Shown here piece by piece: positions 3,785 to 56,950 of a stretch of 64,000 bases of DNA. The stretch is from Alphaproteobacteria bacterium. GTDB lineage: Bacteria; Pseudomonadota; Alphaproteobacteria; Caulobacterales; Hyphomonadaceae. The notes beneath the pieces were generated by a model, which worked only from the letters and a program-made list of their open reading frames with translations, was not told the DNA's origin and did no database searches. Location of the stretch: positions 124,001 to 188,000 of the forward strand of contig WGLW01000010.1 in assembly GCA_016125405.1 (NCBI GenBank), read 5' to 3'. The first letter of the stretch is position 1; the number at the start of each line of letters is the position of its first letter. Position numbers and translations under genes: made by a program.

Positions 3785-3861
<77 letters not shown>

Positions 3862-47418: not shown

Positions 47419-47541
47419 ACGTGAGCGGGGCGTTGGGGCCTGTCCTTGGGGGCGAGTCTCGGGGCCAATTCTGCGGGGGGAGGGCGGAATGCGCCGGAAC
47501 AGGCGTAACGCCGGAGGAAACGGAACGTCTGTAGAAGCGTG

Positions 47542-48468
47542 ATGCGGCCAGCTATCCTAATTCACGGGCCGACGGCAAGCGGCAAGACCGGGCTCGCCAT
47601 CGCCCTTGCAAAGCGGCTCGGCGGCGAAATCGTCAATGCGGACGCCATGCAGGTCTACGCTGACCTGGACGTATTGACCGCCCGGCCCACAGCTGCGGAG
47701 CTGGCTGAAGCGCCGCATCATCTCTTCGGTCATGTCGATGCGGCGACGCGCTATTCGGCCGGCGCGTGGGTCAAGCAGGCGGCGGAAAGGATCGGCGCCC
47801 TGCAGTCGCAGCAGAAGGTTCCTGTCGTCGTTGGCGGCACCGGGCTCTATTTGATGGCGCTTACGGAAGGGCTGAGCGACATCCCCGAAATTCCGGAGGT
47901 TGCGCGCCGCGACGCCCGCGCCCGCGTTGCCGCCGACGCGCGCGGGGCCCATGCTGAACTGGCGCTGGCCGATCCCGTAACCGCGGCTCGCATCGGTCCG
48001 GAAGATCGCCAGCGCGTCGCCCGGGCTCTTGAAGTCTGGCTCGCCACGGCGCGCCCGATCTCCGATTATCGCGGCGCCGCGGCGCCGGTGCTCAGGCGGG
48101 GCGAGTGGCTCGGCGTCGCCTTTACGCCGCAGCGCGAGCCTCTTTATGCACGCATCAACGCCCGCGTTGACGCCATGATGCGGGCGGGCGCCCTCGAAGA
48201 GGCGCGCAGGCTTTGGGACAGGCGACTCGATCGCGATCTGCCGGCCATGCGCGCGCACGGCATGCCGGGTTTCTCAGACTATTTCGACGGGAAGACATCG
48301 CTCGATGAGGCGGTCGAACGCTGCAAACGCGATACGCGCCGCTACGCCAAGCGGCAGTTTACCTGGATCGCTCACCAGTTCACGCTGTGGACGCGCGTTC
48401 CCGCAGAAGCGCTTGACGTCCGCGCGCGCGTCGTCGCCGCGATGTGGAACGAGTTGCAGGCCGCCTAG
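47542..48468 (+). CDS. miaA: tRNA dimethylallyltransferase
   Basis: 308 residues. The P-loop GPTASGKT is at 9-16 and NADAMQVYADLDVLTARPT marks the substrate Asp/Gln region. MiaA adds dimethylallyl to A37 of tRNAs reading UNN codons. A GTG directly upstream (47539) is an alternative start. The divergence from serB and the following ilv operon match a common alphaproteobacterial order. Downstream 48469-48710 has no clear gene. Confidence 0.95.
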   Translation: MRPAILIHGPTASGKTGLAIALAKRLGGEIVNADAMQVYADLDVLTARPTAAELAEAPHHLFGHVDAATRYSAGAWVKQAAERIGALQSQQKVPVVVGGTGLYLMALTEGLSDIPEIPEVARRDARARVAADARGAHAELALADPVTAARIGPEDRQRVARALEVWLATARPISDYRGAAAPVLRRGEWLGVAFTPQREPLYARINARVDAMMRAGALEEARRLWDRRLDRDLPAMRAHGMPGFSDYFDGKTSLDEAVERCKRDTRRYAKRQFTWIAHQFTLWTRVPAEALDVRARVVAAMWNELQAA

Positions 48469-48710: not shown

Positions 48711-49820
48711 GTGAAACTGCTATCGAAACTCGCCCTTGGAACCGCCTTGTGTCTCACGCCGGTTGCGGCGTCAGGCCTCTATCAGGCGATCGCCCAGGCG
48801 GCCCCAGCGCCCTACACGCCGCCGATGACCAAGTTTGGCCAGCCCGACATTGGCGGCTACTGGGCCAACTCGACGCTCACGCCGATCACGCGCGCGGCGA
48901 AGTACAAGGATGAAAAGGTCTTCACGCCTGAGCAGGTGAAGCAGCTCGAGGGCGCGGCTGCGACCGAGTTCCAGGAAGGCCAGGAACGCACCGACCCGAA
49001 TGGCGGTGCGGAATACAAAAACCCGACGACAGTCGAGCGTCCGGAATTCAAGGCGGCCGGCGGCGCTGTGGGCGGCTACAACACGTTCTGGCTCGATCCG
49101 GGCAACCAGATCATGCGCGTCAAGGGTGAGCCACGCACGTCGCTGATCACCACGCCGGACGGTCAGGTGCCCAAAACCATCAGCGGGAAGCGCCCGAGCC
49201 AGTACGGCGGCTATGGCCGCGGCGGCTCCAAGGACCATCCGTACGCCAACCTCGATTATGAAACCCGTTCGATGGGCGAACGCTGCATCATCGGTTTCGG
49301 TCGCAATGGTGGACCGCCGATGTTCCCGAACGGCTTCTACAACAACGACTACCAGATCATTCAGACGCCGAAAAACGTCATGATCGAAGTCGAAATGAAC
49401 CACGACACGCGGATCATCCGTCTCGACGCGAAGCACCGCACCGACGATGTGCGCCCCTATTTCGGCGACTCGATCGGTCACTGGGAAGGCAACACGCTGG
49501 TGGTCGAAACCAACCACATTCCGGAAAGCCAGGCGTTCATGGGCTCCTGGAAGGACCTTACGGTCACGGAGCGCTTTACCCGCACGGCGCCAGACCGGCT
49601 CTACTATCAGTTCACAGTCAGCGACCCGACCATGTGGGCCGAACCCTGGGGCGGCGAGTACGAGTTCCACCCGATGAAGGGCGTGATCTACGAATACGCC
49701 TGCCACGAAGGAAACTACGCTCTGCCGGGCATCCTCTCGGGCAACAAGTCGGACTACGAAAAGGCCGAAGCCGCCGATAAGGACAAAGCCAAGGCCAAGC
49801 CGGTTTCGGCCAAGCACTAG
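48711..49820 (+). CDS. secreted protein of a widespread uncharacterised family
   Basis: 369 residues from a GTG (GGAG seven bases upstream) with a signal peptide (about 1-30). The conserved C-terminal half is recognisable: YNNDYQIIQTPKNVMIEVEM, DSIGHWEGNTLVVETNHI and YEYACHEGNYALPGILSG, a pattern common in secreted proteins of soil and marine bacteria whose role is unknown. The body is beta-rich with many Tyr/Trp. It has its own terminator and does not look linked to the neighbouring miaA or ilv genes. Confidence 0.8.
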   Translation: MKLLSKLALGTALCLTPVAASGLYQAIAQAAPAPYTPPMTKFGQPDIGGYWANSTLTPITRAAKYKDEKVFTPEQVKQLEGAAATEFQEGQERTDPNGGAEYKNPTTVERPEFKAAGGAVGGYNTFWLDPGNQIMRVKGEPRTSLITTPDGQVPKTISGKRPSQYGGYGRGGSKDHPYANLDYETRSMGERCIIGFGRNGGPPMFPNGFYNNDYQIIQTPKNVMIEVEMNHDTRIIRLDAKHRTDDVRPYFGDSIGHWEGNTLVVETNHIPESQAFMGSWKDLTVTERFTRTAPDRLYYQFTVSDPTMWAEPWGGEYEFHPMKGVIYEYACHEGNYALPGILSGNKSDYEKAEAADKDKAKAKPVSAKH

Positions 49821-49847
49821 GCCCGAACAGCGAAGCTGGAAGACACC

Positions 49848-49883
49848 GCGGCGGGACCCGAAAAGGTCCCGCCGCTTCTTTTT
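49848..49883 (+). terminator. Rho-independent terminator of the secreted protein gene
   Basis: An 11-bp stem (GCGGCGGGACC at 49848-49858 with 49865-49875), a six-base loop and a T-rich run (TTCTTTTTGG). It isolates the gene from the ilv operon that begins about 300 bases later. Confidence 0.9.
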
Positions 49884-49934
49884 GGCGCTGACCGGACGAA
49901 AGGCGGCATGGCGTTGGAGAATGGGCCGCCATCA

Positions 49935-49990
49935 GGGTCAATTCTGCCCGATTCGCGGAGATTGACCCCGTCGTCGCGAAACGCTAAGTC
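49935..49990 (+). promoter_or_regulatory. candidate promoter and inverted repeat ahead of the ilv leader
   Basis: An 8-bp inverted repeat GGGTCAAT (49935-49942)/ATTGACCC (49961-49968) overlaps a TTGACC -35 box (49962-49967); a weak -10 TAAGTC (49985-49990) lies at a 17-base spacing. Transcription from here would begin about 20 bases before the leader peptide. The -10 match is poor, so confidence is low. Confidence 0.35.
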
Positions 49991-50016
49991 CCTATTCCGT
50001 CGCCTTAAGGGGATCC

Positions 50017-50079
50017 ATGCCCATGACGCCGCGCAGCCTGCGCCTCGTACTCGTAATCGGCTCGCCGCCGGCCTCCTGA
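50017..50079 (+). CDS. ilv leader peptide (attenuation control)
   Basis: A 20-codon frame starting at ATG (or at the ATG two codons on) with AAGGGG upstream, ending TGA at 50077-50079. Codons 8-14 read Leu-Arg-Leu-Val-Leu-Val-Ile, and both Val codons are GTA, which is uncommon in this high-GC genome. A stalled ribosome at this Leu/Val/Ile run would respond to branched-chain aminoacyl-tRNA. A GGCCTC in its end (50070-50075) can pair with GAGGCC inside the downstream terminator stem (50122-50127), which would provide a simple antiterminator. Structural interpretation is inferred. Confidence 0.65.
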   Translation: MPMTPRSLRLVLVIGSPPAS

Positions 50080-50110
50080 CACGGGAGACCGAACGGCGAG
50101 TTACGCATGA

Positions 50111-50139
50111 AAGGGCCCCGCGAGGCCCTTTTTCTTTTC
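50111..50139 (+). terminator. attenuator-type terminator upstream of ilvI
   Basis: A 7-bp stem (AAGGGCC at 50111-50117 with GGCCCTT at 50124-50130) followed by a run TTTCTTTT. It sits 32 bases past the leader peptide stop and 43 bases before ilvI, in the classical attenuator position. It may also simply terminate incoming transcripts. Confidence 0.75.
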
Positions 50140-50181
50140 CTGCCTGCCGCTGACACGTGACTAGACTTCAGGAAGACCAAA

Positions 50182-51972
50182 ATGGACGGAAATTCCGCGA
50201 TGGACGCGAAGACGCCAGCCGACGCCACAGAGATCATGACCGGCGCGGAGATCGTACTTCGCGCGCTTGCTGATCAAGGCGTCGACACGATCTTCGGTTA
50301 CCCGGGCGGGGCCGTGCTTCCCATCTACGACGCCATCTACGCCCAGCAGCGCGTGCGCCACATACTGGTGCGGCACGAGCAGGGCGCCGGCCACATGGCC
50401 GAGGGCTACGCCCGCTCGACCGGCAAGTGCGGCGTGGCGCTGGCGACGTCCGGTCCGGGCGCCACCAACATGGTCACGCCAATCGCCGATGCGCTGATGG
50501 ACTCGATTCCGATGGTGGTGATCACCGGTCAGGTGCCGACGCACCTGATCGGATCGGACGCCTTTCAGGAAGCCGACACGGTCGGCATCACGCGCGCCTG
50601 CACCAAGCACAACTATCTTGTTCGCGACGTGAATGATCTGGCGCGCATCATCCATGAGGCGTTCTATATCGCCACGCATGGCCGTCCGGGTCCGGTGGTG
50701 ATCGACATTCCCAAGAACGTGCAGTTCGCGAAGGGACGTTATATCGGCCCGGATGCGATCGAGCACCGGACCTACCGTCCCCGCACCGAGCCGGTGTCGG
50801 GCCGCATCGAGGAGGCCGTCGCGCTGATGGCGCGGGCCGAGCGGCCAGTGATCTATTCGGGCGGCGGGGTGATCAATTCAGGTCCCAAGGCCGCCAAGGC
50901 TCTGCGCGCGCTCGCCAAGGCGACCGGATTTCCGGTGACGTCCACGCTGATGGGGCTCGGCGCCTTTCCGGCGTCCGACAAGCAGTGGCTGGGCATGGTG
51001 GGCATGCACGGCTCGTTCGAGTCCAACAACGCCATGCACGATTGCGACGTCATGCTGTGCATCGGCGCGCGCTTCGACGACCGCGTCACGGGCCGGCTCG
51101 ACGCGTTCTCGCCGCGCAGCCGGAAGATCCACATCGACGTCGATCCGTCGTCGATCAACAAGAACGTCCGGGTCGACGTGCCGATCGTGGCTGACGCCGG
51201 CAAGGCGATGGAAGCCCTGACCGAGACGTGGGCGAAGCGCTCGCCGCGCCGCACGCCCGATCTCGCTCCCTGGTGGGAACAGATCGACCAGTGGCGCGCC
51301 CGCAAGAGTTTCGCGTACCCCGCATCCAAAGCGGTTATCAAGCCGCAGCACGCCATCGAGCGGCTCTATGCGCTGACCCGCGACCGCGATGTCTACATCA
51401 CCACGGAAGTCGGTCAGCACCAGATGTGGGCGGCGCAGTTCTTCCACTTCGACGAGCCGAACCGCTGGATGACGTCTGGCGGCCTCGGAACGATGGGTTA
51501 CGGCCTGCCGGCTGCTGTGGGCGTCCAGGCGGCGCATCCCAAATCGCTGGTCATCGACATCGCCGGCGACGCCTCCGTCCAGATGACGATGCAGGAAATG
51601 TCGACGGCGGTTCAGCACGAGCTGCCGGTCAAGATCTTCATCCTCAACAATTCCTGGATGGGCATGGTCCGGCAGTGGCAGCAGCTGCTGCACGGCGAGC
51701 GCTACTCGCATTCCTATTCCGACAGCCTGCCGGACTTCGTGAAACTGGCGGAGGCCTATGGCGGCCATGGCGTGATGTGCGAGGATCCGGCGCAGCTTGA
51801 CGCGGCGATCATGGAGATGATCGACACGCCCAGGCCGGTTCTGTTCGACTGCCGCGTGGAAAAGGCCGAAAACTGCTTCCCGATGATCCCGTCGGGAGCG
51901 GCGCACAACGAGATGATCCTCGGCAAGATCACAGGCGACGAAATTGGCGACGCCGGCAAGATGCTGGTTTAG
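50182..51972 (+). CDS. ilvI: acetolactate synthase, catalytic (large) subunit
   Basis: 596 residues with the ThDP-enzyme fold. Catalytic Glu66 is in LVRHEQGAGHMAEGYAR, with the N-terminal GYPGGAVLPIYDA. The ThDP pyrophosphate-binding motif is GDASVQMTMQEM...NNSWMGMVRQWQ. It condenses pyruvate with pyruvate or 2-ketobutyrate, the first common step of valine, leucine and isoleucine synthesis. AGGA stands 8 bases before the ATG. It heads the operon with the regulatory subunit gene 12 bases downstream. Annotation as ilvB would be equally acceptable. Confidence 0.95.
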   Translation: MDGNSAMDAKTPADATEIMTGAEIVLRALADQGVDTIFGYPGGAVLPIYDAIYAQQRVRHILVRHEQGAGHMAEGYARSTGKCGVALATSGPGATNMVTPIADALMDSIPMVVITGQVPTHLIGSDAFQEADTVGITRACTKHNYLVRDVNDLARIIHEAFYIATHGRPGPVVIDIPKNVQFAKGRYIGPDAIEHRTYRPRTEPVSGRIEEAVALMARAERPVIYSGGGVINSGPKAAKALRALAKATGFPVTSTLMGLGAFPASDKQWLGMVGMHGSFESNNAMHDCDVMLCIGARFDDRVTGRLDAFSPRSRKIHIDVDPSSINKNVRVDVPIVADAGKAMEALTETWAKRSPRRTPDLAPWWEQIDQWRARKSFAYPASKAVIKPQHAIERLYALTRDRDVYITTEVGQHQMWAAQFFHFDEPNRWMTSGGLGTMGYGLPAAVGVQAAHPKSLVIDIAGDASVQMTMQEMSTAVQHELPVKIFILNNSWMGMVRQWQQLLHGERYSHSYSDSLPDFVKLAEAYGGHGVMCEDPAQLDAAIMEMIDTPRPVLFDCRVEKAENCFPMIPSGAAHNEMILGKITGDEIGDAGKMLV

Positions 51973-51984
51973 AAGGCCCGGACG

Positions 51985-52584
51985 ATGACCCGCACACCAC
52001 GCACCCGCACCGCAGCCAGACCGGGCGCCCGCAACGGCGTCCGCGAGGATCCCGCCTCGGCCTACGACATGACGCAGACCGAAGAGGCGGTGGAGCGGCG
52101 CACGCTGGCGTGCATCGTCGACAACGAACCGGGCGTTCTCGGCCGCGTCGTCGGTCTGTTCTCGGCGCGCGGATACAACATCGAATCCCTCACCGTGGCG
52201 GAGATCGACCGCAACGCCCGCCAGTCGCGCATCACCATCGTCACGTCCGGCACCAACCATGTGCTCGAGCAGATCGAGCAGCAGCTTCTTCGGCTCGTTC
52301 CGGTCGCCAAGGTGATCGACGTCACTCAGTCCGGCGGGATCGAGCGCGAGCTCGCGCTGGTGAAGGTGGCCGGTACGGGCGAAAAACGCGTCGAGGCGCT
52401 GCGCATCGCGGAAATCTTCCGGGCCCGCGTCATCGACACCACCAATGAGAGTTTCATCTTCGAGGTCACCGGCGCCTCGGCCAAGATCGACCAGTTCATC
52501 GAACTCATGCGCCCCCTCGGCCTTGTCGAGGTTTCGCGCACCGGCGTGCTTTCCATCCAGCGCGGCAAGGAGAAGGCGGGATGA
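51985..52584 (+). CDS. ilvH: acetolactate synthase, regulatory (small) subunit
   Basis: 199 residues. The ACT domain starts RTLACIVDNEPGVLGRVVGLFSARGYNIESLTVAEID, the valine-sensing region, followed by the conserved small-subunit C-terminal domain ending GVLSIQRGKEKAG. An N-terminal extension of about 28 residues is Arg-rich. The AAGG before the ATG is weak. The stop overlaps the next gene by 4 bases (ATGA). Confidence 0.95.
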   Translation: MTRTPRTRTAARPGARNGVREDPASAYDMTQTEEAVERRTLACIVDNEPGVLGRVVGLFSARGYNIESLTVAEIDRNARQSRITIVTSGTNHVLEQIEQQLLRLVPVAKVIDVTQSGGIERELALVKVAGTGEKRVEALRIAEIFRARVIDTTNESFIFEVTGASAKIDQFIELMRPLGLVEVSRTGVLSIQRGKEKAG

Positions 52585-53156
52585 CATCCCTGGCTTCGCG
52601 TACTCCGTTCATCGCGGCCTTCGCCGCCATGACGCTCTGTCTCGCCATCGCAGCCTGCTCGCCCAAAGCGGCGACACCGGCAGGGGAGGACAGCGCGCCA
52701 GCGACGGCCGACCGCAACGAGGCGATCGTCAAGGACGTGATGAAGGTCGACCAGGCTTTCTCGGACATGGCGCAGAAGGACGGCGTTGGCGCGGCTTTCC
52801 TCGCCTACATGGACCCGATGGAGGGCGAGATGATCCAGCCCGGCGAGATCGTCAACGGCTCGGACGCCATCCGCAAGGCCTTCGCCAACTGGCCCGCCAA
52901 CCAGACGCTGGTCTGGTCGCCGGATGATGGCTACGCCTCGCAGTCCGGAGACCTTGCCGTCACCACCGGCCCCTATCAGCAGAAAGTCGATGGCGTGACG
53001 CGCGGCACGGGCCGCTATGTCACGGTCTGGCGCAAGGATGCGGCGGGCGAGTGGAAAGGCCTGATGGATCTGGGCGTGCCCGATCCCGGCCTCGCGGTTC
53101 CGCCCGGCCAGCAATCGTCCCCCGCCACCTCGCCGGCGGAGCCAAAGCCGCAGTGA
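52581..53156 (+). CDS. lipoprotein with SnoaL/DUF4440-like domain in the ilv operon
   Basis: 191 residues. The start ATG overlaps the ilvH stop. A signal with lipobox IAAC (Cys26) is followed by a Ser/Ala linker and a SnoaL-like sequence (KDVMKVDQAFSDMAQKDGVGAAFLAYMDPM, then GTGRYVTVWRKDAAGEWKGLMDLG), the DUF4440 pattern. Members of this fold are diverse, and no catalytic role is inferred. A Pro/Ser-rich tail closes the protein. Its stop overlaps the next gene (GTGA), so both are translated with the ilv operon. Confidence 0.75.
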   Translation: MTSLASRTPFIAAFAAMTLCLAIAACSPKAATPAGEDSAPATADRNEAIVKDVMKVDQAFSDMAQKDGVGAAFLAYMDPMEGEMIQPGEIVNGSDAIRKAFANWPANQTLVWSPDDGYASQSGDLAVTTGPYQQKVDGVTRGTGRYVTVWRKDAAGEWKGLMDLGVPDPGLAVPPGQQSSPATSPAEPKPQ

Positions 53157-53656
53157 GTGACCTTCTCGCCTTCCTGCGCGACAACGCGCTGTCGGCGGCA
53201 AGCCTTGCGGTTTCGTCGCTCGTCGCGATTTCGCTGGCCCTGTTTGCAGCGCAGTCCAGCCGGCGCGACAGCGAAAGCCGGATCTGGCGCGAGATGGTCG
53301 TGCCCCAGCTGGCCGAATTCCTGGCCGTCAACGAACGTATTATCTCGATGGAGTCCGAGCTGTGGGCCCATCGCGATGCGCACGGCGTCACGTCGCAGGC
53401 CGCGATCATGAGCGACATCAAGTCAGCCCATCTCGATCTCTTGAGGCGAACCTACGCCATCGAACTCCTGCTTGACCCGAAGAAGCCGCTGCACGCGAAG
53501 CTGATGCAGGCGCTCAATGGCGTTCGTTCGACGTCCTACCTCAACGAGAGCACGCGGCTGGTGATGCCGGGAGAAGCCGAAAAACAGCTTCGCCAGAGCC
53601 GCAATCCCGAGCCGATCTTTGAAACCGCCCGTGCGATCGCACGGCGCATAGGCTAG
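53153..53656 (+). CDS. single-pass membrane protein in the ilv operon, unknown function
   Basis: 167 residues from a GTG overlapping the lipoprotein stop (GTGA). One N-terminal membrane segment (about 10-32, [24 protein letters not shown]) leads to a long helical charged domain with no recognised motif ([23 protein letters not shown]). I do not recognise a family. It is 22 bases before ilvC. Its placement suggests coexpression with branched-chain amino-acid synthesis, but its role cannot be stated. Confidence 0.65.
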
Positions 53657-53678: not shown

Positions 53679-54698
<1,020 letters not shown>

Positions 54699-54772: not shown

Positions 54773-56950
54773 TCAGCCGGCGGCCGCCATGGCGGCGAGC
54801 ATCAGCAGCGCCACGATGTTGGTGATCTTGATCATCGGGTTCACGGCGGGGCCCGCCGTGTCCTTGTAGGGGTCGCCGACGGTGTCGCCGGTCACGGCCG
54901 CCTTGTGGGCTTCCGATCCCTTCTTGTGCGTGACGCCGTCCTTGTCGGTGAAGCCGTCCTCGAACGACTTCTTGGCGTTGTCCCAGGCGCCGCCGCCCGC
55001 CGTCATCGAGACGGCGACGAAGAGGCCGGTGACGATCACGCCCAGCAGCATCGCGCCCAGCGCCGAGAGCGCCTGGCCCTTGGCGACGTCGGTGAAGCCG
55101 CCGATGGCCCAGATTGCAAGGAACAGCACGATCGGGGAAAGAACCGGCAGCAGCGAGGGCACAACCATTTCCTTGATCGCGGCCCGGGTCAGCATGTCCA
55201 CGGCGCGGCCATAGTTGGGCTTAGCGGCGAACTCCATGATGCCGGGGATTTCCTTGAACTGCTTGCGCACTTCCTCGACCACCGACTGCGCCGCGCGTCC
55301 CACGGCCATCATCGACATGCCGCCGAAGAGGAAGGGCAGGAGACCGCCGAACAGCAGGCCGACCACCACATAGGGGTTCGACAGGTCGAAGTTGGCGTGC
55401 ACGTTGTCGAAGAACGAACCCGGGGCGGCGTTCTTCGAGAAGAAGTCGAGGTCCGAGGTGAACGCTGCGAACAGCACCACGGCGCCCAGCGCCGCCGAAC
55501 CGATCGCATAGCCTTTGGTGACGGCCTTGGTGGTGTTGCCCACCGCGTCCAGCGTATCGGTGGTCTCGCGCACCTTGTCGTCCAGCGACGACATTTCGGC
55601 GATGCCGCCGGCGTTGTCGGTCACCGGTCCGAAGGCGTCGAGCGCCACGACCATGCCGGCGAGGGCCAGCATCGTGGTGACGGCGATGGCCACGCCGATG
55701 AGGTGGCCCAGCGTGTAGGTGAAGATGATGCCGGCGATGATGATCAGCGCCGGAATGGCGGTCGCCTCGAGCGAGACGGCGAGGCCCTGGATCACGTTTG
55801 TGCCGTGTCCCGAAACCGAAGCCTGCGCGATCGATCGCACAGGGCGGTAGCCGACGCCGGTATAGTATTCGGTGACCCAGATGATCAGGCCGGTGACGAC
55901 CAGGCCCGCGACGCCGCACAGGAAGATGTTGATGCCGGTGAGCGAGAAGCCGTCCGTGGCCGTGGTCAGCGACACCGTGGTGGGATCGCCAAGCACGAGG
56001 TAGATCGCGCCGTAGAGCGCCGGGATCGACAGCACGGCGGATGCGATGAAGCCCTTGTAGAGGGCGCCCATCACGTTGCGCGAGTCCTTGCCCAGCTGCA
56101 CGAAGAACGTGCCGATGATCGAGGTGACGATGCAGACGCCGGCGATCACCAGCGGCAGCAGCATCATCTTGCCGATCGAATCGAGGTCGCCAGCGAAGGC
56201 GATCGAGGAGAGCACCATGGTGGCGACGATGGTCACCGCATAGGTCTCGAAGAGGTCAGCGGCCATGCCGGCGCAGTCGCCGACGTTGTCGCCCACGTTG
56301 TCGGCGATGGTGGCCGGGTTGCGCGGATCATCCTCCGGGATGCCGGCTTCCACCTTGCCCACCATGTCGCCGCCCACGTCGGCGCCCTTGGTGAAGATGC
56401 CGCCGCCGAGACGGGCGAAGATCGAGATCAGCGAGGCGCCGAAGCCGAGAGCGACGAGCGCGTCGACCACTGTGCGGTCGGACGGATCGAGGCCGAGGCC
56501 CACCGTGAGCACGATGTAGTATCCGGCGAGGCCGAGCAGGGCGAGGCCCACCACGAACATGCCGGTCACCGCGCCTGACTGGAACGCCACGTTGAGACCC
56601 TGGCCGAGGCCCTTGGACGAGGCCTCGGTGGTCCGAACGTTGGCGCGGACCGAAACGATCATGCCGATAAAGCCGGCCGCGCCGGAAAGCACCGCGCCGA
56701 GCACGAAGCCCACCGGCGATTCCCAGTTCTTGAAGAAGAAGGCGATGGCGATGGTGACGACGACGCCGACCATGGCGATGGTCTGGTACTGGCGCTTCAG
56801 GTAGGCGTCAGCGCCTTCCTGGATGGCGGCGGCGATCTCCTGCATCTTGGCGTTGCCCGAGGGCATGGCCATCAGCCGCTGGATTGTGAGAACGCCGTAG
56901 ATAACGGCGATAGCGCCCGCAATAAGGGGCAGCCACAACTGCAAGCTCAT
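54773..56950 (-). CDS. hppA: K+-independent proton-translocating pyrophosphatase
   Basis: 725 residues with about 16 membrane segments. The pyrophosphate site carries [35 protein letters not shown]. The GNTTKA motif has Lys in the place that marks the potassium-independent class (an Ala there marks K+-dependent ones). It hydrolyses PPi and pumps protons across the cytoplasmic membrane. AGGG lies 7 bases before the ATG. The C-terminus is Ala/Gly-rich. Divergent from the outer-membrane protein gene at 57246. Confidence 0.96.

Follow-up and report, generated by a model that had tools for sequence, protein, structure and literature searches.

Organization of the ilv locus

The analysed stretch of DNA, hereafter the window, comprises 64,000 nucleotides from a member of the Hyphomonadaceae with an assembly size of 3.86 Mb. 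Its plus strand carries at 50182..51972 the gene ilvB (also named ilvI) for the large subunit of acetolactate synthase, which is the putative controlled gene and matches PRK09107 and TIGR00118 above the cut-off. It is followed by the ORF for the small subunit, ilvN/ilvH (51985..52584), in which PRK11895 was found above the cut-off at 52060-52581; the actual start of this gene may be the in-frame ATG at 52069. Further downstream on the same strand, ilvC coding for ketol-acid reductoisomerase (53679..54698, TIGR00465 above the cut-off) possibly belongs to the same operon. The gap between the small subunit gene and ilvC contains two ORFs (52581-53656) with an overlap of about 100 bases between them; one is a weak match to DUF4440 and the other has no family.

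Upstream of the ilv genes, a gene on the same strand (48711-49820) encodes a protein of 369 residues, for which no NCBIfam or Pfam family match was found. It is followed by a strong terminator-like site at 49848-49875, GC-richer than the terminator at 50109-50138 described below, which would therefore be superfluous for this upstream gene. An intact miaA is found at 47539-48468 and is separated from the ilv leader by the gene 48711-49820. The short frame at 49934-49987 reads RVNSARFAEIDPVVAKR before its stop codon and resembles the C-terminus of MiaA in relatives, for example RVKVISALVAEIDAVSLKR directly before the stop in locus L015; in several relatives the MiaA C-terminus overlaps the ilv promoter. 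Because the intact miaA lies elsewhere with another gene in between, the frame looks like a miaA remnant, perhaps retained as holder of the promoter boxes.

Leader ORF, hairpin and terminator upstream of ilvB

A promoter-like site is present on the plus strand at 49962..49990, consisting of TTGACCC (49962-49968) and GCTAAGTC (49983-49990) with a spacing of 14 bp. It fits the Caulobacter RpoD consensus TTGNCNS / GCTANAWC given in PMC8144410, with seven of eight matching positions in the -10 box. TTGAC occurs at the equivalent place in all 35 printed rows, i.e. the window and 34 relatives; this conservation is possibly coding in part, because the box sits within the last miaA codons in some rows. 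The box also precedes ilvB in all 12 printed loci of the class-wide sample, leaderless ones included. A scan for E. coli-type promoters found none.

The leader ORF (50017..50079, plus strand) encodes MPMTPRSLRLVLVIGSPPAS and runs over 20 codons from the ATG at 50017 to the TGA at 50077-50079. An earlier note on this DNA, made from the letters of the sequence, had proposed a 20-codon frame behind AAGGGG with Leu-Arg-Leu-Val-Leu-Val-Ile at codons 8-14, two of them GTA, and all of this can be read directly: the Shine-Dalgarno-like AAGGGG lies at 50007..50012 on the plus strand and codons 8-14 are CTG CGC CTC GTA CTC GTA ATC. We regard CTC GTA CTC GTA ATC (50044..50058, plus strand) as the control codons, with an additional CTG at 50038, so that successive codons of this short ORF specify the very amino acids that the operon serves to produce. 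A second in-frame ATG is situated at 50023. Since the leader of the genus relatives has 18 codons and places the codon run identically to the window ORF when read from 50023, this position is probably the homologous start and may be the real one. In most printed relatives the leader start is preceded by a purine-rich stretch, for instance GGGAG or GGAGG, and the Shine-Dalgarno-like site together with the conserved open frame is an indirect hint that the leader may be translated.

The end of the leader is embedded in a hairpin of the protector type (1:2; 50059..50102, plus strand), which is absent from the earlier note. With its arms at 50059-50078 and 50082-50102 it contains the leader stop codon, and its foot directly adjoins the last control codon on the 3' side, hence the hairpin overlaps the leader end and is reachable by a ribosome standing on the control codons. 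The fold of 50050-50106 has a z of -3.91, and none of 200 shuffles was equally good. The GC stem with T-run that the earlier note had placed soon after the leader and before ilvI corresponds to an intrinsic terminator (3:4) at 50109..50138 on the plus strand, i.e. between the leader ORF and ilvB. Its hairpin (50109-50132) has the sequence GAAAGGGCC-CCGCGA-GGCCCTTTT and is followed by a T-rich tail to 50138; the stem starts 29 bases past the leader stop. The hairpin has an energy of -14.1 kcal/mol, which was equalled by two of 200 shuffles.

Both strands of the window were scanned for ORFs of 7-40 codons with at least six Leu/Ile/Val in seven codons that end 15-50 nt before a terminator, and the leader ORF 50017-50079 was the sole match. 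At five in seven, one extra case appeared on the minus strand, where it forms the C-terminal end of a long gene (54773-56950). Dinucleotide shuffles of the intergenic stretch 49821-50181 gave such a case in 0 of 2000 trials at either level. A chance origin of the leader-terminator configuration is excluded.

Occurrence of the leader in related genomes

Relatives were sought with the ilvB protein at E 1e-200 or better, which gave matches in 13 of the 15 genus genomes and in 98 of the 101 family genomes. The family genomes G031 and G045 were left out as the ilvB match begins within the gene, L016, L047, L107 and L130 as the upstream sequence is too short, and L002-L005 as paralogues. A terminator precedes ilvB in all 12 usable genus regions, in all 84 family regions from other genera and in 74 of 78 named GTDB loci, a set that partly overlaps the genus and family sets. 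When a leader with at least four Leu/Ile/Val in eight residues and a distance of 20-52 nt between its stop and the terminator was demanded as well, the combination was found in 11/12, 78/84 and 61/78 regions, respectively; the comparative look at relatives that the earlier note had suggested thus speaks for its attenuator reading. Controls at this level of four in eight returned 0/174 on reverse complements, 2/174 on shuffles and 0/327 inside genes. Relaxing to three of eight raised the numbers of regions with a leader to 12, 84 and 72. In L110, L170 and L173 no leader lies in range of the chosen terminator, whilst L118, L124, L128 and L172 have no terminator. The named members comprise loci of Caulobacter, Phenylobacterium, Hirschia, Hyphomonas, Henriciella, Maritalea and Devosia. 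Like the Caulobacter-type ilvB leaders, the window combines leader, hairpin, terminator and TTGAC box at the homologous position upstream of ilvB.

Within the genus, LVLVIGSPP is largely retained, with the variants LVLVFGSPP, LVRVTGSPP, LVNVIGSPR and LVLVSGSPR, and the N-terminal residues of the leader vary while the frame stays open. The pattern CTYGTAYTYGTANT was found once in the whole assembly, and among 150 genomes of the order the exact genus-type leader pattern matched in its own genome only, a result that reflects drift of the sequence rather than absence of the element.

From 163 usable leaders, 54 representatives of less than 80% similarity were selected. The 1:2 hairpin is the strongest co-varying element: its sequence varies across relatives while the pairing persists, the stretch has a median z of -4.5 in 131 distinct sequences (94% below -2), and in the representatives an arm pairs with its own partner 12.6 kcal/mol better than with the partner from another species, which indicates co-variation. 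The corresponding value for the terminator arms is 3.6 kcal/mol. As a side observation, L007, L009, L011, L012 and L017 have GCGGCGA(G) before the ilvB start, a second copy of the leader hairpin's 3' foot that could pair with the 5' foot CTCGCCGC of this hairpin; the window does not have this repeat.

A sample of the class contained 44 genomes with a match and 30 loci, one being the window; the other 29, from other families, were examined. The standard scan gave three candidates among these 29, none convincing (0 in the reverse-complement control), and 4/29 against 3/29 in the reverse-complement control when the demand for a T-run was dropped. The only class-wide locus resembling a member is L229 (MTTQLVLIRQPLSGRD, weak T-run), which is absent from the standard-scan candidates. 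The same script with a T-run of three recovered 89 of 96 genus and family loci. Because nearly all 29 class-wide loci are without leader, the element, as judged from these sequences, is not general in Alphaproteobacteria.

Choice of control codons

The control codons differ clearly from those used in the genes. In the 54 representatives, valine is specified by GTA in 61 of 98 cases, compared with 1.9% in 44 ilvB genes, leucine by CTT or CTC in 65 of 80 (28% in ilvB), and isoleucine by ATT in 25 of 52 (14% in ilvB); at least one GTA is present in 49 of the 54. The third-position GC rises from 0.45 in the control codons to 0.72 in the remaining leader codons and 0.83 in ilvB. Low GC alone is insufficient to explain the choice, because GTA (61) is preferred over GTT (9) and CTC (39) over CTA or TTA (3) in the control segment. 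Such a deviation from gene codons is expected if the control codons sense tRNA charging. In E. coli leaders, a biased choice of control codons has been reported and selective charging of tRNA isoacceptors proposed (PMC1183508).

The genome has one tRNA-Val gene each for the anticodons GAC, TAC and CAC, and one tRNA-Leu gene each for TAA, CAA, TAG, CAG and GAG. Hence, the attenuator may listen to tRNA-Val(UAC) and tRNA-Leu(GAG). No tRNA-Ile with the anticodon GAT was found among the 39 tRNA matches of this genome, which is possibly an assembly gap, the gene being lost together with a ribosomal RNA operon.

Search for an antiterminator

In a test of the nascent stage, a ribosome was placed on the control codons with the terminator 3' arm still unmade, and the gain of the 5' arm from upstream pairing was calculated. 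For the E. coli thr, leu, trp, his and phe leaders this gain amounts to -13.7, -8.4, -9.3, -6.0 and -14.9 kcal/mol with shuffle p of 0.02, 0.08, 0.05, 0.25 and 0.02, i.e. three of the five beat their shuffles; E. coli ilvL and ivbL were left out as controls since the strict terminator search gave none there. None of the 54 representatives reached p 0.05 in 30 shuffles each, and their median gain was -3.75 against -5.19 kcal/mol in shuffles, which form a hard null here as they destroy the 1:2 hairpin as well. The window gains -0.9 kcal/mol, where its shuffles have a mean of -5.9, and the Caulobacter homologues are equally weak (-0.1 to -0.6 in L121-L132, -1.9 in L138, -1.1 in L153 and -3.1 kcal/mol in L179). 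With footprints of 8 or 14 nt the medians of -2.7 and -4.15 were again weaker than shuffles. Full-length equilibrium folding with stalled ribosomes did not discriminate; 5 of 54 representatives fell below a terminator probability of 0.5 and among the five E. coli controls only pheL did. A strong classical antiterminator is not visible, which does not mean that the element fails to work.

Several specific candidates were considered. The earlier note had proposed an antiterminator between GGCCTC near the leader stop and GAGGCC in the terminator. These motifs (50070-50075 and 50122-50127) are indeed complementary, but the antiterminator role found no support, as pairing with the terminator 3' arm would come late and region 1 with this arm shows no co-variation (no cognate excess, +0.59 kcal/mol, 54 representatives). 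In the stall model, the Shine-Dalgarno and start region GGGGATCCATGC could pair with GCATGAAAGGGCCCC, which in the window lowers the equilibrium terminator probability to about 0.2-0.4 at the last control codons, but the value is already 0.30 without a ribosome; among 13 other sequences from the genus and its nearest neighbours, L013 is the only one with a drop at a control codon, and this pairing in the 5' UTR was treated as chance. No co-variation with the terminator was seen for sequence lying upstream of the control codons. Column covariation in Hyphomonas and Henriciella gave a mixed picture without a null, with 1:2 and a few 2:3 pairs among many non-helix pairs, and was not used.

Proposed mechanism and alternative explanations

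The ORF, codon run, hairpin and terminator, their spacing and their conservation are read from the sequences; from them we infer that the leader would be transcribed and translated and that stalling on it would lead to read-through. Very probably, the element attenuates transcription of the ilvBN(C) operon in a ribosome-dependent manner. The claim of the earlier note that a branched-chain amino acid attenuator precedes ilvB/I hence gains substance, since leader, Leu/Val/Ile run, terminator and position are all conserved. Transcription would begin just upstream of the leader, and a ribosome would translate its 18-20 codons. When charged Leu-, Val- and Ile-tRNAs are plentiful, the ribosome would reach the stop codon and the terminator 50109-50138 would end transcription. 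A ribosome stalled on CTC GTA CTC GTA ATC, by contrast, would cover the 5' foot of the hairpin 50059-50102, and RNA polymerase would read through into ilvB.

Two explanations that dispense with translational control are very hard to reconcile with these data. The terminator might simply end transcripts from upstream and the leader ORF be a chance frame; a gene on the same strand does end at 49820, yet it has its own, GC-richer terminator at 49848-49875, the choice of leader codons is specific, and leader and terminator are retained together with or without miaA in the fetched upstream stretch (miaA is present in 12 of 18 loci), hence we give this explanation hardly any credence. Similarly improbable appears a riboswitch or a protein-bound leader for which translation is unnecessary. 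The strong conserved hairpin would suit it, but what is conserved is an open reading frame that contains the control codons in phase, and the hairpin changes its sequence while keeping its pairing. Moreover, no Rfam family reached its gathering score at the element, where the sub-threshold hits contain only an unrelated plasmid antisense RNA (E 0.13); across the whole window only a tRNA at 3788-3861 was found at the gathering score, with nothing relevant at a relaxed threshold.

Within the preferred attenuator reading, it has to be considered how a stalled ribosome would permit read-through. An ordinary 2:3 antiterminator might be so short and tolerant of mismatches that it escapes energy tests, as could be the case in L071 with region 2 AGGTGCTTG and CAAGGGTCT. 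Local 2:3 helices do form in L071, L029, L032 and L088 when the late control codons are occupied, and the accepted E. coli his attenuator also fails the shuffle test (0.25), leu nearly so (0.08). On the other hand, nothing convincing is found for 2:3 pairing in the window or most of the genus, where L011, L012, L014 and L015 reach -4.7 to -6.1, and region 2 with the terminator 5' arm (2:T5) has no cognate excess, its median of +0.42 being no better than shuffles; together with the terminator 3' arm, region 2 gives a cognate difference of -0.33 kcal/mol in the 54 representatives. We therefore regard a hidden 2:3 helix as possible but rather doubtful. Alternatively, stalling might be sensed and read-through achieved without a classical 2:3 helix, which was found in none of the 54 representatives, if the outcome depends on region 1, which is complementary to the terminator 5' arm and loop, or on another kinetic feature. 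The pairing of region 1 is better with its own terminator 5' arm and loop than with those of other representatives (mean cognate excess -1.13 kcal/mol, 54 representatives; 0 of 5000 permutations as good), its foot alone shows -0.69 kcal/mol with a permutation value of 0.0015 in 53 sequences, and region 2 shows the opposite (+0.82 kcal/mol, 54 representatives). These permutations ignore kinship, and the related sequences being non-independent, the values are not true probabilities. Furthermore, the median duplex energies of region 1 or region 2 with each of the terminator arms show no excess over shuffles (-0.01 for region 1 with the 5' arm, 1:T5, against dinucleotide shuffles), region 1 is held in the far stronger 1:2 hairpin (means of -29.8 vs -9.4 kcal/mol) and would lie partly beneath a stalled ribosome, and the switching logic is not obvious. 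A decision by region 1 or by kinetics hence seems unlikely to us. It would be a correspondingly speculative step, and one we would not bet on, to view the ilvB leaders of Caulobacterales and Hyphomicrobiales as a lineage that senses GUA and CUU/CUC stalls without a classical 2:3 helix and in which the segment after the control codons co-evolves with the terminator 5' arm.

Comparison with known attenuators

The closest precedent is the ilvBN operon of Caulobacter crescentus, for which attenuation has been described according to PMC4117421, citing Tarleton, Malakooti and Ely 1994; the earlier note had referred to such a precedent and it is real. Both systems share the same operon start, a short Ile/Val/Leu leader and a hairpin around the stop codon. 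In loci labelled C. vibrioides the leader reads MRKTMIVLMERPFAG in two of three cases and MRTTMIVLMERPFTA in the third, with the terminator 34-35 nt after the stop. The window leader (LVLVIGSPP) and its codon run differ from those of Caulobacter, as does the terminator sequence (AAGGGCC in the window against AAAGGTCC), and attenuation, which has been reported for Caulobacter, is predicted for the window. An alphaproteobacterial ilvB leader peptide was already called previously described in 2005 with reference to Vitreschak et al. 2004 (PMC1273637); these leaders are, as far as given there, comparative predictions of a like element in front of ilvB. Leader ORFs and hairpins also precede the ilvBNC operon of Corynebacterium (PMC11857589, PMC10272879), which belongs to another phylum than the window host. 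Our literature search on leader peptides and attenuation in Hyphomonadaceae found no paper.

The E. coli thr, leu, trp, his and phe operons likewise have a leader with control codons and a terminator before the first gene. They differ in the pairing of the terminator 5' arm under a stalled ribosome, which reaches -8.4 to -14.9 kcal/mol in thr, leu, trp and phe and -6.0 in his, compared with -0.9 kcal/mol in the window. Collectively, the attenuator design is already known and the window element is a new example in another genus. The comparison makes it testable why the leaders use GTA and CTT/CTC, codons which are avoided or rarer in the ilvB genes, and by which route read-through is achieved in a family without a visible classical antiterminator.
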